Source: Paramacrobiotus metropolitanus
Lineage: Eukaryota; Tardigrada; Eutardigrada; Parachela; Macrobiotidae
NCBI RefSeq assembly: GCF_019649055.1
Contig: NW_026570321.1
Location: 310,001 to 374,000, forward strand
Reading direction: 5' to 3'
Length of the DNA stretch: 64,000 bases
Each line of letters starts with the position of its first letter. Position 1 is the first letter of the stretch. Shown in pieces: positions 1 to 33,508 of the stretch. The notes beneath the pieces are model-generated. The model saw only the letters and a list, made by a program, of their open reading frames with translations, did no database searches and was not told the DNA's origin. The position numbers were made by a program, and so were the translations under genes.

Positions 1-1193
1 GACTTAGCAATCGAAATTATGGCGGGCGACTGCCATGTGTGTAACAATGTTAAAAATTCCTCTGAGTTAAAGTTCGCAGTCGGTACAATTTGAATTGTCC
101 TGGTACGGTACTGGTTAGTGGTCACTCGTCTTGCCCCAGATGAAATGGTGTCAGCCCAAAATGATTCCACTCCGTGTACATGTGCCGGGACTTTAGTGTT
201 AGACGCGGCTTTGCGCTTTCCTGCCTGTTTAGCAGGCTGCGACGGCCGGGGTATTCGCCAAACGCCATCAACAAATACCGGCCAAAACTTTTCATCCGGC
301 ATTTCCCATTCTTTAAACGTTTGTTCCGTAAAGAGCTCTGGGTAAGCATTCAACCAGCGGATCGCATCTACCTTTTTCCTTGGATTCCATTTTCTCCATG
401 GAGTCAAAGGCCGGTACATACGCTTGATCGTTTCTGGATGCGGTAATCGCCAGGTGTGAAACTGAAGATTATCTTCACTTGACTTGCCACGTTTCTTGTT
501 TTTCTTTTTCCGTTTTGGAGGGACCACTCCGGTCTTTCGACATAATTTGCTGCCACGATATTTCTCATTAGGACTTGCGCTGGTCATCTGGGTATTGTTG
601 GGTTGTTGACCAGTATATTTCTCTTCAGCAGAACCGGCACTGCTAACGAAATTATCTATATCATCTGCTAGCATTTGCTCCACATCACGCATGTCGTCGC
701 ACCGACTGTCCGTTTTGAAACTTGCGTTAGTCTCTTGAAAACCGGCACCTACAGTATCAATTTTCGGTTGCCGGCCTTTGAGCAGCTTACTGAAAAACGT
801 TGATCCAGTATGCATTGGAACACTGGTTATAGGACTCATTTCTGTGGAAGCTGAGGGACTAAGACGTCGCTTTGGCTCGCTTTCCGGCGTCCGCTCTCGC
901 CAACGGACAATTTTTCGAGAGTGACCACTTCTCCGTGTTGCAGCTTGCTGCGAATCCCGATTATTCATCGTATCTTCCGTCTCAGACTGGGAGCACCATG
1001 TCAAAGATTCTCCGTCGAGCTGGTGATTACGGGTTCCCAGGTTCGTTTCGTCCGCGGAGTTTTGGCTTTCAGATTCTCCGCTTTGCGGGATATTCCCTCC
1101 GGCACACGGTGGTGATGAAGAGGCAGTCGATTCCACTAGCTCTGAGCGACTGGCTGGTGCACGCTCCTGTAACATCATCATTTGGCATTCCAT
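1..1193 (-). CDS. Trp-rich 'EMPDERFWP' module family protein, copy 1 (runs off the window)
   Basis: I do not recognise this family. From the ATG at 1193 the minus strand stays open to the left edge, about 397 codons. Three further in-frame ATGs at 1181-1175 give an MMxLQ start that matches the MMFQ start of the 40.3 kb copy, so the true start may be there. In order it shows a polar acidic region, a conserved T-F-F-S-K-L-L-K motif near 810-785, a Lys/Arg-rich patch (PPKRKKKNKK) near 525-486 that looks like a nuclear localisation signal, and the Trp-rich module at about 410-252 with the core EMPDEKFWPVF. In paralogues this exon ends at a CAG|GT donor soon after the module; here no clear donor is visible, so the last ~100 bases may or may not be coding. 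Downstream exons lie outside the window. It faces away from the other copies. A nuclear role is inference from the basic patch only. Confidence 0.6.
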   Translation of the reverse strand, partial: MECQMMMLQERAPASRSELVESTASSSPPCAGGNIPQSGESESQNSADETNLGTRNHQLDGESLTWCSQSETEDTMNNRDSQQAATRRSGHSRKIVRWRERTPESEPKRRLSPSASTEMSPITSVPMHTGSTFFSKLLKGRQPKIDTVGAGFQETNASFKTDSRCDDMRDVEQMLADDIDNFVSSAGSAEEKYTGQQPNNTQMTSASPNEKYRGSKLCRKTGVVPPKRKKKNKKRGKSSEDNLQFHTWRLPHPETIKRMYRPLTPWRKWNPRKKVDAIRWLNAYPELFTEQTFKEWEMPDEKFWPVFVDGVWRIPRPSQPAKQAGKRKAASNTKVPAHVHGVESFWADTISSGARRVTTNQYRTRTIQIVPTANFNSEEFLTLLHTWQSPAIISIAK

Positions 1194-2927
1194 GATCACA
1201 GAAACATGCGAGATGTCTCGCTTTTTTTCGATTGCACGCACACGCCAGCTGCTTGCCAAAGTAACGCAGCGAATAATATCATATCACAATCAGTAAACCT
1301 TCAAAATCAGAGGAAATACAAAACATCCGTAAATATTGCATACAATTCTAACAAACGTATTGCAATCCAATGCGGCGCGCTAGTGCAATGGCGAACTTAA
1401 GTATTGTCAATGCATCTGATGCTGCCGTAAGAATCCAAGTGGTACGTACAATTGTAGACTCATGCATGTCGGCATGCGCATTGCAAGAACTGCAACTGGA
1501 GGAAATGGAATGTACTTAACAAGATGCATTTGCCACATGCGTTATGATGCATACTCCTATTTTGTCAATTGTGTAGCCCAGTGCCGGTTGCGTTGCCGGT
1601 TAGGCGATCAGTTTCTATAAATAATAGGTGTACGCCGCTCGATTAATAACAGAAGAGATCCTCAGATCGATGATGTGATTATCACATGTGTGCGCTGGAA
1701 GCGTGCTTACGATTTACGATAAATAACAATAATATCATGTACTTATTAGTTATTTTGTTCGTCCAGCACAGTAGACTTCACAAAGGGGGCAAGACCATTA
1801 CCCACCCATACTTCAACTGTGCATGGCGCTATCGGCTGTTCTTTTTACCAGAAAGTCCAGTGCCACCTTTACGAAGTCAATTGTAAACTGCGAATCTTGT
1901 AATAATTTTTGTTTCCAGTGCATTGCTTTTTGAATATTGGTTTCGCTTTTCACTTTTCGAGCAGTAAACTTACAAATTAGAGGCATGAAGTAACGCTAAC
2001 CTTACTCTGTTTCGTCGCCGTGCAGGATTGTAATCGTAGTACCATAACATTTACATTTACATAGTAACTTTGGAAAACTTTCATGTGCAAGGGTTGAAAC
2101 TGCACATCTTTTCAAGTGAATATGTTTTCCAAGCATGTAAGTCTTCTACTTTTTCGGAAGAACGTGTGCTCACTTAACCCGCGCAGTGGACCCCGTAAGT
2201 CATTCATATCTTTTCCACCGGATGTTGGGACCGCAAACCGCATTTATTGCGATCCGTAGAAGTGCCCGCAACAATCAGCTGGTTAGTGGCTATAGAATGC
2301 AAGCTAGTCATCTGATTACAGTATACAAATGATATTAACACTTGTTGTGAGCGACGATGCTCAAAACCACGGGGCTTAACGCAAAGGTCACTTTACCACG
2401 TCACTTCTCACATACTGTAATTTGCCAATGGCGCAGTCATTTTGGCATAAGAACATTTTGTCGTACAAAGAAATTGTGGCCATTTCCGTAACAAACAACA
2501 GACATCCGTACTGCAGGAATGCCAGTGCAGATTCAGGTAACACCAAACGGAGCAACCTTCTGTGGCATCATCGGTGCCCTTCCGTAACAGACAGAGACCC
2601 AGTTTACGTTTTGGATGAGTTAAGATACCTTCGCGCCAATTAAAGTGTTAAGGATGGCATCCAGTTTCTTCCCTTCGATGCAGTTGGAATTTCTATTTTT
2701 CGGTGCATGAAGCGATTATTGCTGTATGTATATGTTTCCAACTTTTATATAAATTGAACAGTGTCAAGAGCCGAGACAGCTTTAGGCTCTTAATACTCAC
2801 TAACACGTCTGCAAACAGATGCGGCGTACTTCTTTAGATGCTCGTGCACCAAGTTCGCCATCGCGCTGCTGCATTATTGTGTATTAAGTATTCATAACGT
2901 TTTCAAGTAACTTAGCTCTGCCACATA
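1194..2927. other. Intergenic, upstream of family copy 1
   Basis: No ORF here resembles a known protein and no RNA gene is evident. It must contain the promoter of the minus-strand copy 1, but no convincing core promoter stands out. Confidence 0.4.
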
Positions 2928-3443
2928 CAATGGACGACAAAAAGAAGTTGAACCGGTCAGTCGGTCCGCGGTTCATTAAATAACCTCGCAACGACACGCC
3001 ACCAGTAAAACTTGGAAGCCTACTCACTTTCTTTGCATGCTACTTTCAGACGCTCGCGCTCCGTGAATATCGAAGTGCAACTACGCTAATTGCATATCAG
3101 AAGGTGAAGAAAAAAATTCTTAACTTTTTGATGCTAAACATGTGGCTGTTTATGGCGAACAGCACAAATTCTAGCCATTTTGCTTTCTCATAGACTTAAG
3201 CATAGCTTGCAAGCCAAACGGTTTTACACACAGATCCTATGCTGTGCCTACGAGAAAGCAAAATGGCTAGAATTTGTGCTGTTCGCCATAAACAGCCACA
3301 TGTTTAGCATCAAATTGAGCGTCTGAAAGTAGCATGCAAAGAAGGTGAGTAAGCGTCCAAGTTTTACTGGTGCCGTGTCGTTGCGAGGTTATTTTTGAAC
3401 CGCGGACCGACTGATCGGTTCAACTTCTTTTTGTCGTCCATTG
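2928..3443. mobile_element. Foldback MITE with TA target duplication
   Basis: The 516-bp segment is almost entirely an inverted repeat. It begins CAATGGACGACAAAAAGAAG and ends with the reverse complement, flanked by TA on both sides (2926-2927 and 3444-3445). The arms match over roughly 200 bp, interrupted by about 70 bp present only in the left arm. TA duplication plus terminal inverted repeats is the Tc1/mariner/pogo pattern; no transposase ORF is present, so it is non-autonomous. The inner arm (around 'CTACGAGAAAGCAAAATGGC') resembles the arm of the element at 28326-28896, so the two may be diverged members of one family. Confidence 0.85.
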
Positions 3444-3600
3444 TATGTATTCATACCGTGCATACGTACAATTTTTTTCCTTGAATTTCGAAGGCCCACT
3501 GATTAGTAATCAGTGATTACTTATGCGCTGATATTACTTATGTAGCAATGTGTCTCTATGTAAAATGCATTTGTTAAGTAGCTAAAATAGCTGGACTGTC

Positions 3601-4746
3601 ATGGAAGCGGTGATTAGTAAACACAAATTATTGATGTTCCAGGACTGCCTGCCATCTAGCCATTCAGATCTACCCGAAATGATTGCTGCTTCCCCACCAC
3701 AGCATATCGCAGAGAATGTACCACAAAGTGGAGAATCTGGTAGCCAAAACTACGCAAATGAAGCGGGCTTGTGTACCCAAGAGCAGCTCAAGAGAGAAAC
3801 GTCACCTTGGTATTCCCGATTTGGATCGGAGGATGTGATTAATAATACTGATTTACAGCAAGATGCGACAAAGCAAAATTCATATTTTCCACCGCCGGAA
3901 TGCACGCCCGAATTGATGCCGGAAGTTGGACGAAACGGAGGTGGAGCTTTTTTAGCTTGCAAAGAGGAAAACTTGGAGACTAGTCTCCCTGTACATAACA
4001 GGACAACCTTTTTCAGCGCTCTTCTCAAAGACCGACAATCGGGAAGTGATTCTGTGGATGCCGATTCTCAACAGTTTAACGAACTTTTCAGAATAAAGGA
4101 TCTGTGCGATTCTGAACGTGATGTGAATCCAATGTTAGCAGATGGCATCGTTAATAATAATGATGGTCGTGAAATAGAATACGCACTGCATACGGAAAAG
4201 CTTAATGATCAACCAAATAACGCCGAATTATTTAGTCCAAATCTTCCAGAAACGGATAGCAAAATCGAAATATCCCGAGAAATATTATGGGTTCCTAAGA
4301 AACGAAAAAGCGTAAGAAAGAGGCATGGAGACTCAACTATTGCAGGGAGTCAACTACTGAGGAATGATGAGTCCACTATTAAGGATCTGGAGTTTTACCC
4401 CGGGCAGTTTAGGTATCCGGAAATGTGTAAGCATCTTCGTCGTCCCACGAGTACATGGAAAAAGTGGGAAATTAAGGAGAAGGTGGATGCGATTCGCTGG
4501 TTGAAAGCGTACCCGGAACACTTTACGGAAGAAACGCTAAAGGAATGGGAAATGCCGGACGAACGGTTTTGGCCGGTTTTTGTTGATGGAATTTGGCAGT
4601 GCCCTCGACAGCCGATATGTGGTAAACCGATAGGAAAGGGCAAAACCGAGTACCAAACTCTGAAAATTGCAGACAGTGTGGACTCAACTTGTAGTGACAC
4701 CAGTTCATCTGACTCTGAAGCAGAACAGGGAGTTGCAGAATTTCAG
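3601..4746 (+). CDS. Trp-rich 'EMPDERFWP' module family protein, copy 2, first coding exon
   Basis: This is an unrecognised family. The ATG opens a 382-codon exon that ends at CAG|GTGTGA. If the donor is not used, the protein stops two codons later (383 aa), so the exon can also encode a complete protein alone. It shows an N-terminal FQDC stretch, a polar region, LCTQEQLKRETSPW (shared almost word for word with the 40.3 kb copy), HNRTTFFSALLKDRQ, an acidic stretch, a basic patch (VPKKRKSVRKRH) and then the Trp-rich module at about 4395-4610 with EMPDERFWPVFVDGIW. The C-terminal tail is Ser/Asp-rich. The next exon copy downstream carries an in-frame stop, so the single-exon product seems more likely today. 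Function is unknown; a nuclear location is inferred from the basic patch. Confidence 0.7.
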
Positions 4747-4914
4747 GTGTGATCCAGCGATTCGTCGTATACTGTACACATAATGTAATTTACATGAGGA
4801 TCTTTACAGTTTTAAATGAAATCGATCATCTTAATTTTCGGAAAGTGTTGTGGCACTCATTGCTGCAATCAGAGTGATATACAGTAATTAAACAGATACT
4901 CCCATTTTTTGTAG

Positions 4915-5498
4915 AATACGAAACCTGTGGCAGGCGAAAAGACAGATCAGCTGCCGGTTTACCGGAAACCAGTCAGTCTCCGGGACGCAGTTCTGTAGCT
5001 GTTCAACAACATAGCGTACATTTCACAACAGGCAGTCGGTGCAAGCGCAACCGTGATGCGGATGAAATGTTAGAAGGTGTACGCCAACATACACCAGCGC
5101 TCCTTAAAAGACAAAAGAGCAAAAAGGAAAACACGCAGGAAACGGAGACTTTTCAATAGTACGCACCGCACCCAGAGCAAAAGCGTTTTCGTCGTTTATC
5201 ACCTACAACTGCATGGCCAAAGTGGACTATGAATATGAAGGTGCTTGCGGTTCGCTGGTTAAAAGCGTTTCCCGAGCAGTTGAGTGACGAGACGGTAAAA
5301 GCGTGGGAAATGCCGGACGAAAGATTCTGGCCGGTTTTTATTAACGGCGGTTGGCAGATTCCTGGTCAGGCGCCGTCTGCTGAACCGACAGAAAAGGATA
5401 ATATCGCGTCTGGAACACCGAAAGACGCGCAACATGCGGAAGCATTTGGGACTTATGTCATTTCCGTTCAAGTTAAGCAGAGTGTTACAAAATTGCAG
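4915..5498 (+). pseudogene. Decayed second module exon of family copy 2
   Basis: The segment starts after a TTTTTTGTAG acceptor and ends at CAG|GTGCGG. One frame reads through a basic region and then the second Trp-rich module (about 5172-5372, EMPDERFWPVFINGGW). That frame has an in-frame TAG at 5157-5159, exactly where the other copies read TGG in an F-Q-W motif, so one G-to-A change explains it. The frame also does not join cleanly to the previous exon, which suggests further indels. From about 5229 an open stretch still covers most of the module. I read this as a broken exon rather than a separate gene. Confidence 0.55.
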
Positions 5499-5777
5499 GT
5501 GCGGTAAATATTGCACTCATGCACACATTTAAGCGGTTCAACGATTATGGGTCAATCCACACAGGGTATATACTTATACGAGTATCGTTGAAAGAAAAAT
5601 TTAATATAAGAGTTAAGAAAAGTTAAGCCGGTTATTCAAGTATCTTAATGCTTCAAAAGCGACGTTGTAGCTTGTACGGACATGCTGTAATATTTGTATT
5701 TAGCACATTCGCTGCAGGAGAATGATGATACTAAGTATCACCATTCTATCTCATCAAAGAAAAGTCTTTTCTTACAG

Positions 5778-5996
5778 AGCAATGAGTCTACGAGCCTTGA
5801 AGATGGACCAGTTGCCAGTTTACCAGAAAACCGTCCGCCTCCAGCCACAACGCAGCTGGCAGATAGTCCTACGTTAATTCGAGTTTGCAATATCTGCGGG
5901 CATGATTTGCATTCTGTACAACAAATATATCGGCATTTGAAAACAGCACATTCTATACGCTTATGGTCGCTACGTATACGGCGAGACGCCAAGTGA
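5778..5996 (+). CDS. C2H2 zinc-finger terminal exon of family copy 2
   Basis: A 73-codon exon (including stop) follows a polypyrimidine tract and CAG acceptor. It encodes a Ser-rich linker and one classical-looking zinc finger, CNICGHDLHSVQQ then HLKTAH (C-x2-C-x12-H-x4-H), followed by a conserved SIRLWSL tail. The same exon occurs at 9867-10085 with the same phase, and both are followed by a conserved 3' segment containing AATAAA (6115-6120 here), so it is the last exon of the gene. It is intact, unlike the exon before it, and could be spliced directly to exon 1 in phase 0. Nucleic-acid binding is inferred from the finger alone. Confidence 0.55.
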   Translation, partial: SNESTSLEDGPVASLPENRPPPATTQLADSPTLIRVCNICGHDLHSVQQIYRHLKTAHSIRLWSLRIRRDAK

Positions 5997-6612
5997 CCTT
6001 TTTCCCGCCTGAGACGATGTTCCGATGTTGAATAAGACGCATAATATGTGGATCAACATGTTCGGAACATGTTGATGTATGCGCTTATGACCTTCGAGTT
6101 TGTTTCGGAGAGGAAATAAATAATAGTTTATTCCAGAGCAGACAAGCTCTTGGGGTACGAGTACTCACGAAGCCAGTCAAAACATCACGCCGTGCACAAT
6201 GCAAGATCTTTGGACCATTCGCCTGCGGAACCGCTTCATACGCAAGGACACCGCTTATTGAAAGGTTATTCGCTATCACGCATTGAATAATTAATGTGAA
6301 CTCGACGGCGTTAACCAACAGGCGGTCAGGCACACAGGTCGCTACAGTTCTGTAGCTTACCATTAGGTTAATTTTTCGTGAGTCTACCAACTGCCGAAAG
6401 CAAGAAAAGCAAGTAAAACTACTGCAGCAACCGCATCGTCATAAACGATTGCGCTTGCAAGACTGTATTCCCGCATGGCGGTTCTAAAAATAAATACGTA
6501 TACACTTTAAACGGCACTTGTACCGCTGTATCGACCGTTCGACGTTTCGCTAGTGTGCAGAAATAGATTATGATCGGCCACAGCACTGAACCGGCAAGTT
6601 GGGAACACACTA
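5997..6612. other. 3' UTR and intergenic spacer
   Basis: It contains the AATAAA signal at 6115-6120 and a short palindrome around 6057-6072 (catgttc/gaacatg). No further gene was recognised. Confidence 0.4.
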
Positions 6613-7107
6613 CAGTGGAACCTCCGATCTTGAACACCCCCGAACCCTGAACAACCCCGAACGTTGAACACTTTTTTTCGTACGCGCAGCTCTCGTAAGC
6701 TATAACATTGGGGGGGACCTCTGAACCCTGAACACCTCCGAATCCTGAACCTTGAACACTTGACTGCGTACCGCAGTACGTTTTCTTAGTAAAACGGACC
6801 TCTAACCGTGAACAGAGAGCGGCTTCACTTGTGTGCGAAACAGCAAAAGCATCCGGAAAGTGGTGAAAGTGTTCACGGTTCTCATGTTATTGTATTAGCA
6901 AGTGTTGATCAACTGAAATATACTTAAGGACAGCATAATATATCCTATTATTTATTGGTATACGCGCTAATTTAATATAAATTACCCCCCCCCCCTACTG
7001 TAATTTTGTGCGCCCCCCCAGGGGCAGTACTTCTGAACCCTGAACACCTCCAAACCTTGAACAAGATATCCCGTACCGAGAGTGTTCAGGGTCGGGAGGT
7101 TCCACTG
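6613..7107. mobile_element. pogo/Tigger-like MITE with internal pentad repeats
   Basis: The 495-bp segment is bounded by CAGTGGAACCTCC at the left and its reverse complement at the right, with TA on both sides (6611-6612, 7108-7109). The ends continue as imperfect inverted repeats. The interior carries many degenerate copies of a 'cctgaacacc(c)cgaa' motif, dense at 6625-6760 and again at 7030-7090, plus runs of G and C. No transposase is present. Termini starting CAGTGGAACCTC with TA duplications are characteristic of pogo/Tigger-type elements. Confidence 0.8.
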
Positions 7108-7529
7108 TATTCATGTGAAAAGTGAAAACGCACATGTATTTTGAAAAACTGATGCACTGCTGTATCTGTGCACGACTACGAATGATGCGACGTTTAAAAC
7201 GTGTAGGTTTCTTGCGTGTTGTACGTTGTAGACTTGCAGTTCGTCGTCGCTGTATATCCAGCTAAAGACGTAAGTAATTGCGCTTTTATTATACAACGTG
7301 CGTAAGTATGTAGCTTAATTCAAATAAGTGATACCATTATAAATTTTCAATTTTGTCATACGAGTAGCTCGTATTTGTGTTTGATCTGAGCGAATCACTG
7401 CGCAGCTGCGCTACTTGCGTTTTTAACAGTTTGTCTTTCGTCACGAGGGCCGAGCCGTCCGCGTAATCGCACATTCGAGATAAACGAAGCATTTCATGGA
7501 TCGCTGTGATTAGGAAGTACGAAATAACC

Positions 7530-10085
7530 ATGTTCCAGAATTGTAACCCATCCAGCCCACCAGAGCCTGGCGAATTGGCTGATTCTCCACCACCCGCCGA
7601 TCCGGTGAACAACAGTATCGTACTAGGGATCCGGGAGCCTGGACGAGCGTTTAAAAGCCACAATTTTCCGGCAGAAGGGGATATAATTATCCTCGATGGG
7701 CAGTTTAACGGCGAATCGGTGGAAGGCGGGCCAAGACGAAACGGAGGCACTTCAGCTTTTAACGAGCGGAATCCGGAAACTGCTTCCCCAGTGCACAACC
7801 AAACAACGTTTTTTAGCAAGCTTCTCAAAAGCCAGCAATCGGAAAGTGAGCCTGGAGGTGCCGATGCTCGACAGCATCACGTAAACGTTACCCCAGGCGG
7901 TTGGTGCGAGCGCAAACGGGTTATGGATCAAATGTTAGACGGTGATGTATGCCAAAATACCCCAGTGGTTTCTAGAAATTAAAAGAAGAAGAAAAACAAG
8001 CAGGTCAGGTTCAATGAAGCGAAGCCTTTCCAGTTACCAAATCCAGAGATCCATAAGAGATTTAGCCGTCCATCGAATTTGACAACTACATGGCCACAGT
8101 GGACTACGAGGCAGAAAGTGGATGCGATTCGCTGGATAAAAGCGTTCCCGGAGCAGATTGCGGATGAGTCGGTAAAAGCATGGGAAATGCCGGACGAAAG
8201 ATTTTGGCCGACTTTTATTAATGGTGGCTGGCACTTTCCCGGGCACAGAACATCTGTCAAGCCACCCAAAAAGGATAATAGAAAGCAATCTGAACACTAC
8301 GAATACGGTTCCGAATACGAATCCCCGCCTATTTTGTGACGTCATAGCCCTATTCGTTTCGTAAACCTTCCGTAAAGCACGAAATTTAAGCTTTGAATCG
8401 TACCGTGTCTCCGGATAGCTGTCGATTCTGCCTGTGTTGATGGAATTCCGTTTGCTTTGGATTTTAAGTAGAGAAAACATTCCTCTATTTTATGAGCCTA
8501 AGAAGTTTTTGAAAACCCTTTCACAAGTTAAAACAAATTTTGACTGACATGAGGTATCACAACTGAAATTACGTTAAAAAATTAAACTTGTACGAGTCGT
8601 ACAGGCAAACGCATCGAGCTCAGCCGACCAATAGGAAAATTCTAAAAGCAGTTGGATCGAGTGGAGCTAGTTAACTTGCAGTCGCCGACTTGGGCGGTTG
8701 AGCGCTTCCGGTCTGAGGCAGTTTTTGCTTAACCACTTCGGCCGCGCTACGTTTCGGCCACATGTTGTCACTTCGGCAACATACAGGTCGCCTTACTCAC
8801 TTCGGTCCGCACTCTGTTCGGCCACCGTTACATGACATTTCGGCTTTTATTTTTCTTGTGTCAAGTTGTTACTTAATATTTGTTGTTGTTAGCACTTTCG
8901 TTTTTTTAAAAGAGAAACTATTTTTTTGTCAGTTTTTTTAGGTTTCTTTGGTATCTTTGGTTTTTTGGAATTTATTATACGTTTTGGTATTCTCCTGTGA
9001 CGAGAATTTTTGAATTATGAGAGGCTGATGGTGAACTGAAACTGCAAGTGAACGTGGGGTAATCTGCGTTCTGTTCCAACAAAATAGTTTGCTTCTTTTT
9101 CTGTGTATCAAGTGATCTGTTCATTCTGTTGTCAAGTAACAGAAAACTTATGTTACACACATTATTGTTGTACGTCATTACGCAACCATAAACATGCATG
9201 GGTTATCGATATTAGCTGTATCTGTTGGCTTTTTTCCTAATAAAAGTAAGTATTAATGAAATTTCATAAACAGATAAAAGTTGGCAACAGTGCATCGACG
9301 CATTCCTGTAACTTCTTACTAGACTGCAAGTTTGCAAATTTTTCAGTTATCAGTAATTTACATTGGTGGACTACAGCCTGAATGTAATGTGGTCGAATGT
9401 CGAATGTGAGTGGTGGCCGAAATTAGCGTAACCGAAGTGTAAATGGACGAAATCATCGGTACCAACCGTGTCGGCATTTGCTTCGGTCCGAATGCATAGT
9501 CAGATCTCGGATGCGCTTACGAAAACGATTTCAATCCGTGTTCGTATTCGGTTCCGTATTCGTAGTGTTCAGATTGCTTTCTAATACCGCGCCTAAAATC
9601 CCGAAAGATGCGAAACATGTGGACATGTCTAATGCCGCAAGTGTGGCAAAGCTGCAGGTGTGGTAAATTACGAGTATATGACACCTACCTTATATATTTA
9701 AGCAGTTTGGCGGTTCAGCATCAATTTACATATAACCAAATGAAAACAAAATATATAAAATTAAGCCGGCCATACGTCTATTAAAAGTATTAAAGTTTTG
9801 TCACTGTACTGGCTTGCTGAAATAGTTAACGGCTTCGAAAAGCGAAGAATTCTCTTCTTTTTACAGAGCAAAAAATCTGCAAGCCTGGACGACCAACCTG
9901 CTGCCAGTCTACCAGAAACCAGTCAGGATCCAGCCAAAACCCATCAAACTGGGAATTACAAGTTAATTCGTATTTGTAATATTTGTGGGCTTGGTTTGCA
10001 TAGCATAAGAGAATTGTACCGGCATTTGAAAACAGCACATTCTATACGGTTATGGTCGCTGGGCAGAGTGCCCAGTTCCGAATGA
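7530..10085 (+). pseudogene. Trp-rich module family, copy 3, broken by a stop codon and an inserted element
   Basis: The ATG at 7530 begins with MFQ as in the other copies; the frame upstream of it opens only with GTG. The reading frame carries HNQTTFFSKLLK, then meets an in-frame TAA at 7980-7982 inside the Lys-rich patch, and continues in the same frame through the complete Trp-rich module (about 8030-8235, EMPDERFWPTFINGGW). The coding sequence is then interrupted at 8281 by a 1.3-kb mobile element. Homology resumes at 9587 and reaches a CAG|GTGTGG donor at 9657. The zinc-finger terminal exon lies at 9867-10085 and is intact (CNICGLGLHSIRE, HLKTAH, stop), followed by AATAAA-rich sequence. 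Two lesions make a full-length product unlikely, although exon fragments could still be transcribed. Confidence 0.65.
8281..9581. mobile_element. 1.3-kb inverted-repeat element with CACTTCGGCC sub-repeats, inserted in family copy 3
   Basis: The first 41 bp (beginning GAAAGCAATCTGAACACTAC) are repeated inverted at the right end with two mismatches. Both ends are flanked by taata (8276-8280, 9582-9586). The site matches the homologous exon in copy 2, where the sequence aaaaggataata runs straight on, which shows the insertion. Inside, 8690-8845 carries scattered 'cacttcggcc' units and 9405-9495 carries inverted equivalents, with T-rich 'ggtttcttt' blocks between. The same unit types build the larger foldback element at 22.6-24.3 kb. 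No transposase ORF was found. Confidence 0.75.
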
Positions 10086-12593: not shown

Positions 12594-13541
12594 GTACAAC
12601 TGTACAACTACTGCATTTACAACATACAGAAACAGAGAAACAAAGTAACGTTACTTCATGCTTTTAACGAAAACTTTGAAGGTTTAAATTTAAGTACTTG
12701 AACTCGAAAGCAATGCGCTGGAAACAAATATGGTACACGGTGCGCAGTTTACAGTGGACCTTAATAAAGGTGGCAACATTGTAACACCCAGTCACCCACG
12801 GTCATTTCAAAAAACTGATCCTGAACGGTTAGAAACTACGAATATATTATCTGTATGTAATTTAATTTTTGACATCTTATTGTAATTTTTCACTATATTT
12901 ACAGATTTACTTACCAGATTATCGCTACGGTTGCAAAAATCGGGTTTTTCTCTTGATAATTTGAAAATACCGTACTTGTCAATCCCATGCAGCTTGGCAT
13001 TTGATTACAGTACAATTATGAGATTAGGAAATAATGATCGACTCAAAAAGCTGCCACTAATTAAGTTTTGTATTTATGACTGAGCCTTTTTGCTTCATCG
13101 TCTGAAAATTAAACGTCTGGAATTTGAGATGCACACAACATTATATTTTAATTATTTTCTAAAAAAACTTGTGGCATCTGCAAATTGCTTTGTATGCAGT
13201 TACTTTCCGGTTTTTCATACGCTGGTACGTAAAACATTTATTGACAAAGCCCGAAAGCCGGTAGAAAAGCCGGTTAGTGATGGCTCATCGTACGCTCATC
13301 AAAATGGGCAAATACTGTTCAATACCAATCGATGCGTCGGGCCTCAACAACTTGTACGAAAGCTAAAGCACATTGCGTAAAGAATAAACACACTTCCGGA
13401 AGCATACGACGAACCAGTGCATCGCGCAATACACTGGCATTTGCACTTTGGGCGATTATTTCATTTATCATCGAAAAAAATCAAACTTTCTGCTTTTCCA
13501 CCGAATAGAAGTATATATATATACACCGGCCCGGCAGCATT
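12594..13541. other. Upstream region of serpin A, shared with unit 2
   Basis: From about 13090 the sequence is homologous to 28105-29147 (for example the 'gaaaagccggttagtgatgg' stretch at 13264-13283). The intact TA at 13313-13314 is the empty site for the MITE present at 28326-28896. No gene is evident. Confidence 0.5.
13508..13524 (+). promoter_or_regulatory. Candidate TATA box of serpin A
   Basis: A run of alternating TA (gtatatatatatacacc) lies about 20-30 bp before the ATG. The paralogous serpin B has tcgtatataagtaaat at the same place (29119-29134). If used as a TATA box, the leader would be only a few bases long, so this could also be a diverged AT repeat within the 5' UTR. Confidence 0.3.
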
Positions 13542-15231
13542 ATGAGCACACCCGTTACACCAGACACCGACGCAATGGCTGCCGCTGTCATCGCCCCATT
13601 CTCCCTGGCCAACAACCAGTTCTCCCTGGATCTGTACGGGAATTTAATTGCCAGTAAACCCCGCAATGAAAACGGTTTCCTCTCGCCGTTCAGCGTCATG
13701 GCTGCACTGTCGATGGTCAATGTCGGTGCCAAGGGCAAAACCAAGCAGCAGATCCTCAAGGCCACCCATCTAGACAAGATGAACGACACCTTTATCGACA
13801 GTGCCTTCATGTCGTTGTTCACTCGCCTGGAAGTCCATACCGCCCCCTCAACCGCCCCTGCCACACCCCCCGACGAATGGGCACGCCAGACGCCGTATTT
13901 AGCCATCGCCAATCGCGTGTATCTGCAGAAGGGGTTCAGTTTTAAGCAGGAATTCGGGGATGTGCTGAAGAATTTCTATCAGACGACGTTCGGTAAAGCT
14001 TGAAATCATTATGTCAAATCATTGTCTTTCAAATCGCAAATCAAATCACTTTAAAATGGAACTGGCCTTCGAGAATTTGAGAGTTTGAAACAAAAGCAAA
14101 ATATCTGTAATATTATTTAAAATTTAATATTATTTAAAATTTTAAATATTCTGCCATAACAGAAAAAAAAGTAAGTACTCTAAAACCCTTTAAAAAATGT
14201 GTTGTGTAATTTCTGATTTTTTTAATTTCATTTCAAATCATTACAAAAACGGCCTAAAACTGTTTTAATTCCACTCCAACTGTAGGTGAGGCGGATTTTG
14301 CGGGTAATGCACAGCAGGCGACACGCGACGTCAACCAGTGGGTGGAGAGTGTCACCAATCATCGCATTCAGAATCTCTTCAGCCAGATTGAACCGAGCGT
14401 GAAGTTGGCGCTGGTCAGTGCGATTTATTTCAAAGCCGAATGGGAGGACCATTTCCAGAAAGAGATCACCCAGAACGGGGATTTTTTCGGGGAGGGGAAC
14501 ACCTTCAAAAATGTACCGTTTATGAAGCAGACTGATGACGAAGCAAAATTCGCCAAATTGGCGGATGTGGATGCTACCGGCTTAATTAAGCCGTACGCCC
14601 ACGGAGCTGTCCACATGCTGTTCATTCTGCCCAATAAGAAGGACGGGCTGGCCGCGCTGGAGAAGAAGCTCCGCCCCGCTCACTTTGATATCAGCAAGTA
14701 CCAGAGGGCGGAAGTGGAGATCACGTTGCCCCGGTTTAAGATCGAAAGTGATTTCAACCTCAATGCTGCTTTAAAACAAATTGGTATTGTCGATGCCTTC
14801 CAGGATAATGCCGATTTCAGCGGGATTTCCACGCAACCACTGAAGATATCAGAAGTGGTGCATAAGACATTTGTCGGTATGTACAGTAAGAAGAATCGTT
14901 TATGAACATGCAATTGACAAAAATTCTCGTATTTGAAACTGGTTCATTTCAGTATATGTAAAATTAAGAAACTTAAGGCGGAGTCTGTAGAAAATGAAGT
15001 CACGAATTTTTGTTAACTGTACGGTTATGTAATGTTTCAGAGGTCAATGAGAAAGGAACCGAAGCGGCGGCAGCAACCGGCATGAAAATGGTGCCGTTAT
15101 CGGCAGTATTCTTCCCGGAAGATATGAAGAAAGTGTTCAAAGCTGACCATCCTTTCTTGTTCGCCATCCAGCACCGCGAAACCGGCGCTATCTTGTTCAT
15201 CGGACGCGTGTCCAATCCCAGTCCCGCCTAG
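13542..15231 (+). CDS. Serpin A, predicted inhibitory, no signal peptide
   Basis: Three exons join in frame: 13542-13992, 14286-14876 and 15041-15231, giving 410 residues, normal for a serpin. Introns have GT/AG ends and the joins restore codons that are uninterrupted in serpin C. Serpin signatures include [20 protein letters not shown] near the N terminus, ANRVYLQKG, the breach region [15 protein letters not shown], and the C-terminal HPFLFAIQ...ILFIGRV. The last exon holds the hinge [10 protein letters not shown], which small residues mark as inhibitory. Counting P17 at the Glu of EKGTE puts P1-P1' at Leu-Ser, so chymotrypsin- or elastase-like proteases are plausible targets. The N terminus lacks a secretory signal, suggesting an intracellular serpin like vertebrate clade B. 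AATAAA lies at 15548. Target and location are inference. Confidence 0.88.
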
Positions 15232-16155
15232 AGATGGCTGCACTACTTTTGGTGAACGAGTAAGGGCGAACATTCTCGCGAACACTGTCTTTGGCGCAAA
15301 TTATACAGCTTTTTTTATTTGTATCCCCTAAGGAGTTGTTAAGTAATTTTGCCGCAATTAATTCTGCCGCAATTTGACCAAATCATCTTATATTATCACC
15401 TGCCGCGGTCAGTATTTTTTTTCTTTACTGATAGTGAGTAACATCCATAACGCAAACCCGTTACAGATCCATAATCTCGCTTATTGTCATCATTGTAAGC
15501 TACAGTAATCAAGAGTTCATCATTCATTGCTCTCGGATGCGGTGCTGAATAAAATTAAAACACTTTCTCTTAGAGTTAGGTCGTCGAATTGTGCCTAGAA
15601 ACCTTTATGTACTGCACTCACATTGACGTACGCAGAAAAGATATAGGCAGGCAAGTACGTAATTTGTAATTACATATAATTTAGTAACTGGCGTAAACGC
15701 CTAAACGGTAAAAACCTTTCGTTCATCGAAACAAATCTTGTACAACAAGCTTTTGTTCTACATCTTTCCAGTTTGTTACGCACGACTTCTGATGTTAAGC
15801 ATACGATTATGTGTAGGTAAACGATAATTATGCTGTCGCGTTACAACCCTTTGCTTGTAAAAGTTCTCCAAATAATAATTAATAATTTATTTGTATAGGT
15901 ATATATAAAAGCGAAAGCTTTGTTTTAGGAAAAGAGACTGAAAACTTTCATTGGTCATACTGAGATCGTGAAGTTTGCTCATGCATGGTAAAGGGTAATT
16001 TGCAAATCTTTACAATTTTCGTCACATCTTGACGCAATATTCAGTTTAATCAGCGTGCTTCTAGTTTTCGGGTACTGTGATAGTTTTCTGAAACGCTTAG
16101 TTGTAGATACTGTATATACACTGTTACTAATCAGAACGTTTTACGTCCAGTGAAA
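15232..16155. other. Spacer between serpin A and glycosyltransferase 1
   Basis: It includes the serpin 3' UTR with AATAAA at 15548-15553. The rest is AT-rich and homologous in patches to 30772-31716 (for example 'cgcctaaacggtaaaaacct'). No other gene was seen. Confidence 0.5.
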
Positions 16156-17097
16156 ATGCTGACAGTCATCCAGAGGCTCAAACCTTTTACAACAGTCGCA
16201 ACGCTAATTCTGGTGGCAGCATTCCCCTTTAGGCAAAATATATCGGACTTGCTGCGTCATCATCCACTGTTTTTCATCACTAAATCGCAGACGCATTATG
16301 GCCAGTCTGTTGCGAAAAAGGCTGTGCTATCACCGGAAAGTAATGTGCATAGTCTGATTGTATTTGCCTTTAAAGACACTCCGAACGCACGTATTAATCT
16401 GGAGTTTTTCCTCCGGCATGGCCTGCACAATCAAGCCGATTTTGTCTTCATCATCCAAGGCGGATTCAACGGCAGCTACATGCCACCCATTCCTGCAAAG
16501 CCCAACATCAAAGTTATTTTGCGCAGTAATACCTGTCAAGACTTAGGAGCTTACAAAGAAGTCTTGACTCACAATGAACTGTACAAAAACTATTCTCGCT
16601 TCATCCTACTAAATGCCAGTGTCCGTGGACCTTTTTTACCGTTCTGGTCGCAAAACTGTTGGAGCGATATATTTTTCTCACGGCTGGTTGGAAAGGTCAA
16701 GTTGGTGGGTACGACCTTTAGCTGTATTCCGGTACGACATGTTCAGTCGATGGTGCTGGTGACGGATCGTGTTGGTTTGAAAATCATTCTACCTATCTTA
16801 AAATGCTTTAAGAACCACCAAGAAGCTATTCAAAAGGGTGAAATTCGTCTTACTAGCGCAGTGTGGAAAGCGGGGTTTGACGTCGACGTGCTGATGAATG
16901 CATACCGGGTGGGAATGATACAATTCAACTGTTCGTACAATGATCCGAATTGGGAAGGCTGGTATTTCGGAATTAACATCAACCCATATGAAGTCGTATT
17001 TCCCAAGGTTAACCGTAACGTTCAACAGAAGCTGATAAATTTATATACGGATTGGCACTACAAGAGTAATTTCAGTAGTTATACACAATGTTTGTGA
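16156..17097 (+). CDS. RgpF-like glycosyltransferase-family protein 1, type II membrane
   Basis: A single exon of 313 codons starts at the ATG at 16156 (the in-frame codon upstream is GTG, not a likely start). Residues about 12-25 form a hydrophobic segment near the N terminus with no obvious cleavage site, consistent with a type II signal anchor. Conserved blocks include LEFFLRHGL, FVFIIQGG, the DLGAYKEVL motif, FILLNASVRGPFLP, WSDIFFSRL, VKLVGTTFSCIP, HVQSMVL and NDPNWEGWYFG. This order resembles the rhamnan-synthesis-F-like family (Pfam RgpF) found in bacteria and scattered eukaryotes, judged from memory. Likely acts in the Golgi lumen on an unknown glycan. Its paralogue at 31717 is nearly identical through the middle and less so at the N terminus. 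An AATAAA at 17230-17235 directly abuts an inserted LTR element. Confidence 0.65.
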   Translation: MLTVIQRLKPFTTVATLILVAAFPFRQNISDLLRHHPLFFITKSQTHYGQSVAKKAVLSPESNVHSLIVFAFKDTPNARINLEFFLRHGLHNQADFVFIIQGGFNGSYMPPIPAKPNIKVILRSNTCQDLGAYKEVLTHNELYKNYSRFILLNASVRGPFLPFWSQNCWSDIFFSRLVGKVKLVGTTFSCIPVRHVQSMVLVTDRVGLKIILPILKCFKNHQEAIQKGEIRLTSAVWKAGFDVDVLMNAYRVGMIQFNCSYNDPNWEGWYFGININPYEVVFPKVNRNVQQKLINLYTDWHYKSNFSSYTQCL

Positions 17098-17235
17098 TAC
17101 TATGAAGTCTGTGAGTTTCGTATCTGTGAGTTCTGCCGGTTGTGATACTTGAAGTTGGTAGTATATAATTATTATGTAAGTAAAAGTCGGGGCCAGATGC
17201 CCGAAAAGAATTAAATCTATGCTACCAGTAATAAA

Positions 17236-17420: not shown

Positions 17421-17768
17421 CTTGGAGTCGCATACCGAGAACGGAATTTTTTTAAGTCGACAGTTTCAGTGCCCTTTAACTTTTACCACCGCTACCCCTC
17501 CGCCTCTCTGTTGAACAGTGCCTTTAGCCTTTACCACCGCTACCCCTCCGCCTCCCTGTTTCAACAGGTAAGTCCTTATGTATCACGTCCAATTTTTTTT
17601 CCCAAAAAGAACAATCTTAACTGTTACCGATCCTAATACTATTTTCGAATTCCGTATTAACGCGCCATTTTTCAAAAAAATTTAATTAACGATCGTATAG
17701 TCAACTTTCCGCAGTTGGCAGGCTGTTTGCAATAATTAATAATTACTAATTACCAGCAAGTCAATATC

Positions 17769-18656
17769 ATGGCTCTAGACCCGCAAGCACTGCAGAATAT
17801 TCTTAACACCGTTAATGCCGCTGCCGCTCAGCAGAATGCAGCTTTACAGCAAAGCCTGCAGAATAACGCTACTGCACATCAGAATTTATTAAATTTTTTG
17901 AATAATCAAAATGCCGCTGCAGTTACCCGTATAACATCTCTCGAATTGGGTGATTTGCCGAAGTTTGGTGGTTTTTCTTACGAAGACGCTCAGGACTTTT
18001 TAACACAGTTTGAGACGATGGCCGTTGCTAATAACTTCACACCAGCTAACAGAATCCAACATTTTGCGCTCTGTTTGAGGAACAACGCTCTTAGCTGGTA
18101 TACCGCAGAACCAGTAGGTATCACATGGCCAGACCTTCGATCCCATTTTTTAACAGCTTTTGGAAAAACCCGTTTTGAACTCGATCTCATGAATGAAGGT
18201 TGCCGTGCACTAGCATTTACAGATCCTCGTACTTTTGTCCATCGTGTCCTTGATTACGTGGAAGCCAGTAACCCCGCAGCTACCGAAGCAGAAAAAACAG
18301 TTCGTCTCTTCGAAGCCTTGCCCCTTGAATTTAAACCGGCATTCGTGACTAACAGCCCCAGAACCGTAGCCGATTTTTTCAATCGTTTACGTGATGTGTC
18401 CGTTAAACAACAATACAAGCTCGCGATGCAGAATCAAAATTCGTCATATCAGGCGTCCAATAATGTTGCAGATCAGTCAAATCTTTTGTCGCTATACAGC
18501 CAACCGACAGCGCCCAGCTCTAATCAGATAGAGATTGTCGCTCATAACCTGATGAAAGGTTTGGATGAAAGACTGAAGCATCTTGCTGAACAAATAAAGT
18601 GTTTACAGGAGAATAACGAATCAGAGGGCAGTTACGATCTTCTCAGAATTACTTAA
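17769..18656 (+). CDS. Retrotransposon Gag-like protein (capsid region)
   Basis: The 295-codon ORF starts with a Gln/Asn/Ala-rich segment, then a typical retrotransposon gag core: LPKFGG...ED, FLTQFETMA, W.DLRSHFLTAFG, and a central helical region ending in a second polar segment. A different frame (-1) downstream, about 18662-18981, continues with a Cys-His-Cys stretch that looks like a degraded zinc knuckle with the first Cys missing, then a Gln-rich tail to a stop. A frameshift near 18640 therefore separates capsid from nucleocapsid-like parts; I see no slippery heptamer, so a mutation is more likely than programmed shifting. Domain calls are from memory of Ty3/gypsy Gag families. Confidence 0.75.
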   Translation: MALDPQALQNILNTVNAAAAQQNAALQQSLQNNATAHQNLLNFLNNQNAAAVTRITSLELGDLPKFGGFSYEDAQDFLTQFETMAVANNFTPANRIQHFALCLRNNALSWYTAEPVGITWPDLRSHFLTAFGKTRFELDLMNEGCRALAFTDPRTFVHRVLDYVEASNPAATEAEKTVRLFEALPLEFKPAFVTNSPRTVADFFNRLRDVSVKQQYKLAMQNQNSSYQASNNVADQSNLLSLYSQPTAPSSNQIEIVAHNLMKGLDERLKHLAEQIKCLQENNESEGSYDLLRIT

Positions 18657-18981
18657 CGGGTAATGCGAACCGGTTAACCCTTCGACTCACAGATGCGCCA
18701 GGCCAGGTTAATGGATTTTCTAATTGCGGTAACTATGATCATCTTTCGTATGCTTGCCCGTTTGGAGGTGGCCACTCTACGCAGGCACAGTATGCACAGG
18801 CACAACAAGATTCTGAAGATCGTTATCTGATGTCATTCGGTGTAGCACAGCATCCGCCAACGACGCAGCAACTGGCTTTTAACATACCCGGTAAATCAAC
18901 ATTTCAGGCGCAACAGTTCAGGTCTGCAGAATCTGAGGACACCGGCAGTGCACAATCGGCGTATTCGAGATGGCAGATTTA

Positions 18982-21841
18982 ACTTTTCTGGTCTAATTGT
19001 CATTCGTACGTGAAAATTTGTTTCGGTATTGTAAACTTATGTGCTCTTAAACTTTTTGTTGGTATTTGAATATTGGTTTTTATTAGTGATGCCTGCCCGT
19101 TGTTTTTGAAGGCTGCAGCAGTATTTATTGTTATTGAGAAAAGGGCAGATGAGTGAGAAAATGTTTGAGGTTGACAGCGCTGATTCGCTGAAATATTAGA
19201 TTTGTTTGATGATGGCCAGATGTGAAAAGCCTCGCGATGGTAACGGTAATGGTTAATGTCAATGTAATGTGCAGAAATCGATTTGGGATATATTTAAATT
19301 GTTTTCGCATATGCGCAGCACAGCTTAAATCTTATCTATCATTAATTTTCCGCCGCTGGTTCGGCTAATGACATAAAATGCCAGATGTTGTCGTCTTCTT
19401 TTTGCGCAGTCAGAGGTCGTTAATGTCAACTTAAATTATAAAATTTTCAATAAAATCATCAAATCCAGATGTACCATCATTTAAAGTTAAAAATAAATTT
19501 CAACTCTTCGATTTCAACGAAAATACGATCATAAATCTTAATATCAGCGCGCACAACACATGACGGCATACTTGGCACAAAAACATAAATATTATTATTC
19601 GAAATTCCCATTTACTGGTACGGTTATCTTATGCTACGGCAATATGCGCATTGATTTTGGGTACAGACAATTATGAATGTTCGCATCGACTGTAAAAATA
19701 TAACTGATTGGTTCGATTTTGAGATTGTGCAAAGTGTATGGTAACAATTACGCGCGCTTTAATGTAAAAAATAATTCCGCCGAACAGAAGACGCAGCTTG
19801 ATCACCACTGTATACCACGGCAGCTCAAGTAAGTATTTGTGTTAAATCGAATCACGCTAATTACGCAAAATAAAATTAAAGTAGATCTACGAAATTAAGA
19901 AGATCACTAAAAATTTATGGAAAAGGGCTTTGCACGAGCAAATCTATTTATATTCGCACATATACGGGTGCGTGCTATAAACGCCCATCCTTGTTTTGTT
20001 GCGTCGTAATCTATTTTTTCGATCATATAGACGGGCCACGGCTATAAACGCCTGCCCTTGTCCGTGCCCTCTGTTTCTATTGTAATTGTGTTGTCATCCA
20101 GGTGCGCCTATAAACAGTCCCTGTTGGTCTGATTACAGTAATAAAGCCCTCGAGATCCTAATAATTAAATGCGTAACATGTCAGCAAGTCGTGTGACTCG
20201 AAAAACAAACGATCGCATCATTCAGAACAGTAAACAGCTGTTGGGATTTTGATTACGCAACCGAGCTCGCCTGTTGGTAGACTATCACAACAACTGCTGC
20301 ATAGCGCTTCTGAGTGTAAGTATTTCATTTAGTTCCAATTTAAAAAGTATAATAAAAATTCGTATGTATATATTTTATGCGCATATTGCGGTAAGGAAAA
20401 AGGGGTGTCCCTTCCTTAGTACGGGTATAACAAAATTTTTGTTCTGAAGTCATGCATTGTTTGTTGTTCTGCTGATATTGTTTTGGACTTGACTTTGAGT
20501 CTGCAAATAACTTTTCATAAAACTGCAGATGGCGGCAATATAAGTAATTATCAACGTGCTTTTCAACGTTTTTTTGTACTTGTTTCGTTAATTTATAAGT
20601 CATAGCGTAAAAGCGTACACCTTTTTCAGTAACTGAAGAACAGCAATCTTAACAGATAGTACTGCCACTTCCGTAATATTAACAGTATGCGTCTTTTGTT
20701 ATTTCTTGTCACTCTTTTGTTATTTCTTATTATAATTTTATTAGCGGCCAAACATGTGTCACATCTTGTCACCTATTTTCCTTTTTTTAATCTTGGTTTT
20801 GCCAGTCGATTATCTTTTTCAGCCGGTCGTACTATTCTCAGCAATTCTGTATAGCCAGAACAGGGAAGATCATTGCATTCGCTGGATAATCATTTTCCAT
20901 TTGGCCCGATAAAGCACTTCTCGATTTTATTAGGAAAGTAACTTTGGCCCGATTCTCTCCCCGCTCTATCTTTTTTCTTGTTCACGCCTCACCCGTTCTC
21001 ATGTATCCATGCATATCCGTCGCATCACTTCATACAAACAGAGAGCACCGGTTCTCTCTTACTCCTATCATCCTGTCTGCACTACTGTCTTGCCACTCAT
21101 CACTCGGATTCACCCCATTGTAATGCGCTCGCTTTACGCAGTATTGCTCTCGTGCCTTTGTCTCCCCCATCTCATGCGCATTGTCTTATCTCGCTCCAGT
21201 CATTGTCCATTCATGCGTCATTGTCTCACTATTACGCCATACAATGTTATACACTTCATTGACCGAAAGATTGGCGCAAGGTTTATTTTGAAGGTGGCGT
21301 TTCTGGAATATTTGATTTGTATTTGCGGCAATTTTCAACAACTGAATCGTTAAATTAAATTAGCGCGTTAACTGAAAATTATAAAAACATTTGTAAATAT
21401 AAGTAGGGTTGCGTCAATGTGCGTTCAAGTTTTTCAGAACCAGAAGTTTGTAATGATTTTCAGCTGGTGTACTGACGTCGTGGACATCGATATTACACTT
21501 CCTTTCCCAAGACCATTATGAACCCCGATGTCGCATGTCTGCGTGGACTAAGTGGTCATTCTTTAACGTCGGATGGATCGTCGGACGGATACAACAATTA
21601 ACGTCGTACGTGGAACCGGACGGATACAGCAACTATCGTCCTACGTGGAACGCTTCGGAATTCGGATCATATTTGCCTTATTTACCTATTATTTTATTAT
21701 TAATATTTTCGAACTAAGTCTACGTTTTGTACTCCCAAAAAAATCTGATCGTGATTTCTCTAATGTTTTTGCACGCTTTGAATTTTCTTTTGTATATGTT
21801 TTTGTTTATTTTTCCTGAAAACATTCTGTTTTCAGTTTGGT
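18982..21841. other. Non-coding interior of the LTR element
   Basis: About 2.9 kb with no pol-like reading frame on either strand. It includes three evenly spaced 'ctataaac' boxes (19975, 20042 and 20108; spacing 67 and 66) and a ~35-bp tandem duplication at about 21584-21653 (units starting ggacggatac). Such a long non-coding interior is typical of LARD-type non-autonomous elements. Confidence 0.6.
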
Positions 21842-27818: not shown

Positions 27819-27893
27819 ATGTATTGCATAAAACAATTGTACCAGCATTTGAAGACAGCGCATTCTATACGGTTATGGTCATTGCGCAAATAG
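27819..27893 (+). pseudogene. Remnant of the C2H2 terminal exon at the duplication junction
   Basis: The tail of the family zinc-finger exon is recognisable: LYQHLKTAHSIRLWSL-like coding (from 'caattgtaccagcatttgaa') followed by a stop. It matches about 10005-10085. It lies immediately after the THNSL2 fragment, so it marks the start of duplication unit 2. The Cys half of the finger is absent. Confidence 0.7.
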
Positions 27894-28896: not shown

Positions 28897-29147
28897 TACT
28901 GTTCAATACCAATCAATAATGAGTCGGGCCTCAACAACTTGTACGAGTACCAAAGCTAAGGCACACTACGTTTAAAGAATAAACAAGCTTCAGGATGCAT
29001 ACGAGTATACGACGAACCAGTGCATCGTGCAGTAGAGTGGCATTTGCACTTTGGCCGATCATTAATTTTTATCACCTGAAAAAATCAAACTTTTGCTTTT
29101 CCACCGAATAGAAGTACTCGTATATAAGTAAATACACCGGCAGCATT

Positions 29148-32658: not shown

Positions 32659-33508
32659 TACTGATACTATGATGTCTGTGAGTTTCGCATCTGTGAGTTC
32701 TGTCGGTTGTGATATTTGAATTTTGAAGTGTATAAGTAAAAGTCGGGGACAGATGCCCGAAAATAAATAAACTGCGAAGTAAGTTTGTAACTGCACAGTT
32801 ACCACTTGCAGTTGATTACCTTAATTAAACGCATCGTTTGCTCAGTATTGTACATACAAGAGAACGAATCGTTTGCCTAATCTGAAAGGACCAATCTCGG
32901 ATATGGCCCATATATAGCAGTATCTTCATAAGCAATATTTCTCTTTGTAATCTTATAATTTTATGGTAAAATATAAAATATGTACTGAGCAGAGTATTTT
33001 ATGGTATTATAATAGGTGGTTTAGACTAAACCGACTAGTTTAGACTACAGTTAGGAACAACATATAGCACAGTATGCCAGTGCAACACTGCTCGGGGCGC
33101 GTATCAAAGTACAATACAACTGTACAATAAACACTTCGCGAGGCATATCTAATTGTAAGACTTCAGTTTCTGAACCGGTTTAAATATGTTGAGAGCACTG
33201 GGACTTACCATTAAGATGCACTGAGCGAGTACGTACAGACTGTACATAATTATTAATCTTTTATTACCCTTTGCAATCAACAAGTAAGGCGTTCCACCTT
33301 CATTTATACACGTTTTTCCAGGCATGTACTGTGCATTGTACGTAAACGATAAAATCAAACAGGTTTGGAAGTAGTTATTTATGCCCCAGACACACACATA
33401 ACTCAACGACAGCAAGCCACGGTTCAAGTTCGCTTCAGAATTTAACACAGCCAAATTACTGGAACTACGGTGGGGCTAATTACAGTAATTCAGGCTACCG
33501 GAAAAATC
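32659..33508. other. Spacer before serpin C
   Basis: Contains the glycosyltransferase 3' UTR. 32780-33165 is homologous to 22040-22515. The promoter of serpin C is expected after 33170; no clear TATA box was identified. Confidence 0.45.

Follow-up and report, generated by a model that had tools for sequence, protein, structure and literature searches.

A Trp-rich domain, undescribed in the libraries searched, and its small tandem gene family in the tardigrade Paramacrobiotus metropolitanus

Tardigrade genomes contain many genes without known relatives. Here we describe a gene family of Paramacrobiotus metropolitanus that is built on a tryptophan-rich module, seven copies of which lie in a 64,000-nucleotide stretch of contig NW_026570321.1 (assembly GCF_019649055.1, positions 310,001 to 374,000, forward strand). 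This whole stretch is called the window below, and positions refer to it unless a contig or locus is named. In this genome, three contigs carry trehalose-phosphate synthase matches; the 18 gene-specific bases of the TPS-TPP-2 reverse primer published for Paramacrobiotus sp. TYO (PMC8277472), the strain later named P. metropolitanus (PMC11191345), have a single, exact match, on contig C84 roughly 0.9 kb past one of them. The module is a genuine domain that none of the searched libraries describes, and this conclusion is far surer than the function proposed for it.

A tblastn search of the whole 169.8-Mb genome with one module (4384-4632, copy U2) finds seven places in the window: 243-467 on the minus strand (U1), 4384-4632 (U2), 5166-5387 (U3), 8022-8261 (U4), 41051-41293 (U5), 41742-41963 (U6), and 42116-42331 (U7). 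Their E-values range from 1.2e-56 (self) to 4.8e-20, and all seven copies listed in a first-pass annotation of the window are recovered at the places and on the strands given there. Two more copies lie beyond it, U8 on another contig (C134:98900-99127, locus L001) and the divergent U9 (C101:284310-284495, locus L002), which is 26 kb upstream of the window and gives the weakest match (E 1.3e-14). With U9 as query, the identical nine places are found, all at E ≤2.5e-9. In addition, a degenerate-codon pattern for A-[IV]-R-W-x2-A-[YF]-P-E, with at most one mismatch, occurs at 11 places in the genome, namely the nine copies and one place each on contigs C40 and C62, and the reversed pattern used as control occurs at none. 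As tblastn and the pattern agree on nine copies and the control is empty, the recurrence of the module is far beyond chance. The places on C40 and C62 were rejected as copies; their surroundings lack the remaining module, and the C62 frame by eye resembles a uroporphyrinogen decarboxylase. No tenth copy was found in the genome by tblastn and pattern, weak matches being able to escape tblastn. Eight of the nine copies are on one contig within 70 kb. The initial picture of one gene family with several copies in two clusters has to be modified, since a second, decaying clade accounts for four of the seven copies in the window and two more are located elsewhere in the genome.

Five copies (U1, U2, U5, U8, and U9) have open module exons. 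The U1 gene (1-1193, minus strand) encodes 418 residues from the first Met and runs off the left window edge, its stop being outside. Its open reading frame corresponds to 5937-7283 (minus) of locus L003, where 6001-7500 equal window positions 1-1500, and contains FFSKLLK (about 777-803), the basic patch PKRKKKNKKR, and the module at 243-467 (E 5.3e-28). Exon A of U2 (3601-4746, plus strand) is a 383-residue frame with TTFFSALLK at 4003-4029, a PKKRKSVRKR patch and the module at 4384-4632. Its paralogue, exon A of U5 (40337-41410, plus strand), is a 360-residue frame with TTFFSRLLK at about 40715-40741, a PKKRKKNR patch and the module at 41051-41293. In both, the N-terminal region contains TTFFS[AR]LLK and is followed, in this order, by a PKKRK-type patch, the module, a tail, and a candidate donor. 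By eye, these donors read CAG/GTGTGA in U2 (phase 0) and CAG/GTAGGA in U5 (the slash marks the exon boundary); they are, like all splice sites named in this text, candidates from reading the sequence. An in-frame stop lies one codon past the donor in U2 and two codons past it in U5, so that without splicing the protein would extend only a short way past the module. U8 duplicates the U1 locus together with some upstream DNA (78.6% identity over 855 bases, 67.6% over 247, and 71.4% over 133); it encodes 275 residues from the first Met, with the module near the C-terminus. In U9, the module exon is followed by a candidate donor, GTGAGT, and the upstream coding sequence spans two frames. Lysine and arginine together make up 11.4-15.3% of the residues in U1, U2, U5, and U8, with 15.3% in U8.

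Between the divergent genes U1 and U2, an inverted repeat (2923-3055 and 3317-3448, 95%) surrounds a palindrome (3127-3314, 85%), and related stretches are also found upstream of U8 on C134 (L001 3211-3304). Beside U1, L003 4406-4878 holds exon frames with, by eye, a MYND-type zinc finger as in SMYD proteins.

The four other copies are of a second type, referred to as exon B. In U3 (4915-5498, plus strand), an in-frame TAG (5157-5159) stands just before the module (5166-5387) and the exon ends with CAG/GTGCGG. Two candidate acceptors were noted by eye, a strong one before 4915, which does not share the phase of U2, and a weaker AATAG/TAC before 5160, which does. Its paralogue U6 (41607-42091, plus strand) has a basic patch, an in-frame TAA (41739-41741) and the module at 41742-41963; the candidate acceptor before 41607, ctttcttttgtag, looks strong and is in phase 0 with the U5 donor (by eye). 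Compared with U3, U6 has one base fewer near 41973, in a short homopolymer (by eye), where a nanopore-based assembly may err; according to its description, the P. metropolitanus assembly started from nanopore reads (PMC8277472). U7 (42092-42480, plus strand) repeats the U6 unit in tandem (74% over 351 bases), with the module at 42116-42331, an in-frame TAG at 42314-42316 and a donor place that reads CACATGTGG. Finally, U4 (7530-8339, plus strand) joins an exon A-like N-terminus, with TTFFSKLLK at 7803-7829, to a module of the exon B clade (8022-8261), with an in-frame TAA at 7980-7982. The last bases of this frame already belong to an inserted element of about 1.3 kb (8276-9586) that has 46-nt terminal inverted repeats (TIRs), 93% complementary, and TAATA on both sides, included in the repeats. 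No long frame was seen in this element, and the rest of the split U4 exon is found at 9584-9665. In all four exon B-type copies (U3, U4, U6, and U7), an in-frame stop is thus present in the module or shortly before it.

A tree of the copies unites U3, U4, U6, and U7 in a single clade (88; 99 without U9) and pairs U2 with U5 (91) and U3 with U6 (90). At the DNA level, the U2/U3 and U5/U6 loci align at 73% over 1,129 bases and at 82% over 334 bases. These pairings, together with the alignment of the loci, indicate that a two-exon gene (A and B) was probably copied as a unit. Overall, this looks like a birth-and-death family, in which five copies keep open module exons and four decay. The loss of the exon B copies looks recent, because U3 and U6 retain a low rate of nonsynonymous change (dN 0.11) relative to synonymous change (dS 0.42).

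The alignment of the nine modules has 15 invariant columns, five of them Trp (P12, W25, W28, K33, A36, R38, W39, A42, P44, E45, W55, P58, W63, F66, and G69 in U2 numbering). The domain spans about 45-50 residues, has loose linkers, and can be written W-x2-W-x4-K-x2-A-[IV]-R-W-[LI]-x-A-[YF]-P-E-x9-W-x-[MI]-P-x3-[FW]-W-x2-F-x-[DN]-G. Even U9, which shares 33-43% identity with the other copies in the trimmed alignment, has an ungapped core from the first invariant Trp through the last. AlphaFold was run for U2 with the nine-row alignment and for U9, the most divergent copy, with a nearly identical alignment. For U2, the best of five models (mean predicted local distance difference test score, pLDDT, 74.5; core blocks 81-87) has a helix at 30-42, a second helix at 49-54 and a hairpin at 65-72. 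The best of five for U9 is again predicted as helix-helix-hairpin (mean 74.8; core blocks 79-87). Because the best of five models was used each time and the two alignments were nearly identical, this agreement is modest evidence for the fold. Foldseek gave nothing near significance against the PDB (best E 2.4 for U2 and 9.1 for U9) and a best E of 4.1 against BFVD; with VIA-align, no chain reached a Z of at least 2 among the 22 and 4 chains compared. The modelled domain would therefore lack a known structural counterpart, though absent fold matches do not establish a new fold.

Searches at the sequence level agree with the earlier remark that no named family carries this pattern, none having matched in Pfam, the PDB, NCBIfam or PHROGs. 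In Pfam-A, no model reached its curated cut-off in the modules (best E 0.048, in one of the nine members). NCBIfam gave no module match at E 1 and PHROGs a best E of 0.058; in the PDB, no sequence was found at E 10 with the profile or at E 1 with U2. Literature searches, in their leading results and with supplements and most subscription papers outside their scope, returned no paper that could be linked to the Trp-rich module. A viral or bacterial origin was also considered and rejected, as none of the 20 viral and 122 prokaryotic stretches matching the pattern, in collections without animals, was confirmed by tblastn.

Selection on the module was measured with the GY codon model, fitting one dN/dS per sequence set. 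The ratio is 0.28 for the modules of U1, U2, U5, and U8, the four close open-frame copies, 0.455 for those of the exon B-type copies, and 0.34 over all nine. Around the module, it rises to 0.715 in the N-terminal region (U1, U2, and U5; U8, shorter there, was omitted) and to 1.45 in the C-terminal tails (U1, U2, U5, and U8), the latter value being rough as the alignment is short and loose. Pairwise counts, which are rounded, cover eight of the 36 module pairs; many pairs have a dS of about 1 or above, which makes the distances rough. An excess of dS over dN is found for U2-U5 (p 2.9e-5), U1-U2 (p 2.1e-5), U1-U8 (p 1.8e-4), U3-U6 (p 8.2e-4), U3-U4 (p 0.002), and U4-U7 (p 0.0055). The strongest argument that the domain folds and is useful comes from the module being more constrained than its surroundings. 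The suggestion of a real folded domain, first drawn from the conserved Trp/Pro pattern, is thereby borne out by purifying selection in both the pair counts and the codon model. In the part that could be tested, dN/dS was not near 1 in all copies, and neither a known domain nor a transposase was matched.

Downstream of the module exons, C2H2-type zinc-finger exons are found at three loci. The one at the U2/U3 locus (5778-5996, plus strand; CNICGHDLHSVQQIYRHLKTAH) follows the acceptor tttcttacag in phase 0 and matches zf-C2H2_4 at 15.3 bits; that at the U4 locus (9867-10085, plus strand; CNICGLGLHSIRELYRHLKTAH) follows tctttttacag and matches at 18.4 bits. The third is at the U8 locus on C134 (L001 5383). 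The pattern C-x2-C-x12-H-x3..5-H is matched at 5886, at 9975, and at L001 5488, and also in one unrelated minus-strand frame of L002. A relic of such an exon, with the Cys pair lost, is present at 27819-27890 (plus strand; QLYQHLKTAHSIRLWSLRK). The dN/dS of the three exons is 0.43, and all three pairs show more synonymous than nonsynonymous change (p 1.3e-6, 0.0047, and 0.013). The first-pass annotation had two loci ending in a C2H2 exon; both exons (5778 and 9867) exist, but they sit behind module copies that carry stops.

Two short motifs, TFFSxLLK and a basic patch, had likewise been described as recurring upstream of the module, and this holds for part of the family. TTFFS or STFFS with LLK is found in U1, U2, U4, and U5; the motif reads TSFNQLLQ in U8 and, by eye, FFSRVLTK upstream of U9, and none was seen upstream of U3 (5166), U6 (41742) or U7 (42116). 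Six of the nine copies, U1 to U6, have the basic patch ahead of the module (for instance KRKKKNK in U1, KKRKSVR in U2, and KKRKKNR in U5); the patch is weaker in U8 and missing before U7.

From these sequence features, it can be proposed that the family encodes transcription or chromatin proteins based on an undescribed domain, with an optional C2H2 finger; taken as a whole, we consider this chain of reasoning evenly balanced between right and wrong. The ancestral gene would have had an exon A (FFSxLLK, basic patch, and module), followed by an exon B (basic patch and second module) and by the C2H2 exon. The basic patches, present in U1 to U6 and of the PKKRK type in U2 and U5, and the zinc finger encoded further downstream suggest the nucleus as the probable location of the proteins. 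There, the small Trp-rich helical module next to a basic patch may contact DNA, histones or a partner protein, and FFSxLLK, perhaps kept even in U9, could serve as a short docking motif. The C2H2 finger would be added or omitted by splicing, and the best candidate for a module-plus-finger gene would be U2 skipping U3.

It should, however, be noted that several observations weigh against this proposal. The three C2H2 exons score 15.3, 18.4, and 19 bits, against a Pfam zf-C2H2_4 cut-off of 27. All of them lie behind a stop-bearing exon (U3 and U4) or one that falls short of its donor (U8, by eye), so that a working module-plus-finger gene is certain nowhere. Indeed, the U8 frame by eye stops ahead of the donor-equivalent place, and the basic patch found in U8 by regular expression sits after the module. 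U2 and U5 are acidic overall (isoelectric point 4.9) and U1 and U8 basic (9.5 and 9.7). When the N-terminal region of U2 is used as tblastn query, U1, U2, U4, U5, and U8 are reached but not U9. Two of the eight module pairs lack a clear excess of dS over dN (U4-U6, p 0.21; U6-U7, p 0.054). Finally, the other four AlphaFold models score lower, with pLDDT of 71.6-63.0 for U2 and 59.2-54.1 for U9.

Other explanations have to be weighed. The copies, some of them broken, the TIR element in U4 and the inverted repeats between U1 and U2 might suggest that the family derives from a transposable element, being a transposase or accessory protein that was domesticated or is dying out. Transposon-derived proteins often carry one C2H2 or BED-like finger, and the C2H2 frame on C134 gives a BED score of 15.9 bits (cut-off 20.6). 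We nevertheless regard this origin as unlikely. The search of 169.8 Mb yielded only nine copies, of which eight share a 70-kb stretch of a single contig, and the frames scanned contain no transposase or integrase match in Pfam. Moreover, the TIR element interrupts a single copy instead of flanking the family, and the module is under purifying selection. Less credible still is a relationship with the tardigrade DNA-damage protein TDR1, of which the family would be a form or a branch. TDR1 is described as a tardigrade-restricted, basic, DNA-binding protein of 146-291 residues with a conserved C-terminal part (PMC11233135). The module family resembles it in being a tardigrade protein family with basic members and a conserved part toward the C-terminus; by size and basic character, U8 (275 residues, 15.3% lysine plus arginine, module near the C-terminus) could fit, and a P. 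metropolitanus homologue of TDR1 is named in a figure legend (PMC11233135). In two short printed peptides of He-TDR1 (PMC11233135), no likeness to the module family was seen by eye. The lysine-plus-arginine share of He-TDR1, 20.5% (PMC11233135), is higher than the 11.4-15.3% of U1, U2, U5, and U8. A genome search with one of the peptides gave no match, which shows little since 15 residues are too few.

The WL-x3-PE core also prompted a comparison with the BRK domain of chromatin remodellers (PF07533; CHD7/Brahma type), of which the module could be a diverged form. Both have a short W-L-x3-P-E stretch after a helix, and a comparison with a single profile gave a local similarity of 12 columns at E 0.017. 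However, the similarity is confined to these 12 columns, and the remaining Trp pattern has no counterpart in BRK. The hhalign probability is 2.7%, over 12 of 83 columns, and a global run gave nothing useful, the profile having been made from three of the seven BRK places in the genome. Within the HMMER filters, none of the nine members matches the Pfam BRK model at E 10, and no BRK structure appears among the 16 and 4 Foldseek rows. Kinship with BRK is therefore not supported by Pfam or hhalign, and appears most improbable. Another alternative concerns the decay of exon B, whose copies might still work if U3 were spliced at AATAG/TAC, past its stop, and U6 at a downstream CAG/TAT, giving two-module proteins. 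By eye, these acceptors match the exon A donors in phase, and the excess of dS over dN between U3 and U6 would suit retained function. Against this stand the stops in all four copies, at differing places, the frameshift in U6, the insertion in U4, the lost donor in U7, and a dN/dS of 0.455, compared with 0.28 in the open-frame copies. Working exon B copies are thus doubtful, with a small chance of being real.

Returning to the reading as a family of transcription or chromatin proteins, this kind of family is already known: lineage-restricted tandem genes that have a module of their own and, in addition, a zinc finger. The ZAD and KRAB zinc-finger genes of arthropods and vertebrates are arranged in tandem, with an N-terminal module, fingers in a later exon and fast turnover, as in the module family. 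The latter differs from them in its single finger instead of an array, in a different, undescribed module and in that only nine copies were found. A bolder extension, which we hold to be rather unlikely, is that a new, tardigrade-restricted domain adopting a small fold of its own (two helices, a short turn, and a Trp-capped hairpin) would serve as contact module of a fast-turnover nuclear family. This family would evolve as genes are copied in tandem, exons decay and a single finger is gained or lost, like the arms-race families that silence mobile DNA. For further work, it is useful that the part under selection can be delimited, that the paralogues are divergent enough for a usable profile and that the decaying copies provide an internal contrast. 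The domain is a compact target for structure and localisation studies, and the family a test case for the origin of new nuclear proteins in tardigrades.

The window also contains other genes. Tandem copies at 13313-17215 and 28897-32771, with 82-90% identical DNA, each comprise a serpin gene (Pfam Serpin) and a second gene, whose RgpF match barely exceeds the cut-off. A third, more distant serpin is located at 33446-34600, and the segment 24725-25865, which includes a serpin C-terminal exon, is 80% similar to 34788-35802. The open frame at 17736-18982 looks by eye like a retrotransposon Gag; its part 17736-18653 has no Pfam match at E 0.001. At 59592-60128 lies the start of a gene for an SRF-type (MADS box) transcription factor (Pfam SRF-TF, E 3.4e-7, 24 of 48 positions), and 62652-63302 on the minus strand encodes a BTB/POZ domain protein (Pfam BTB, E 5e-23), speckle-type by eye.

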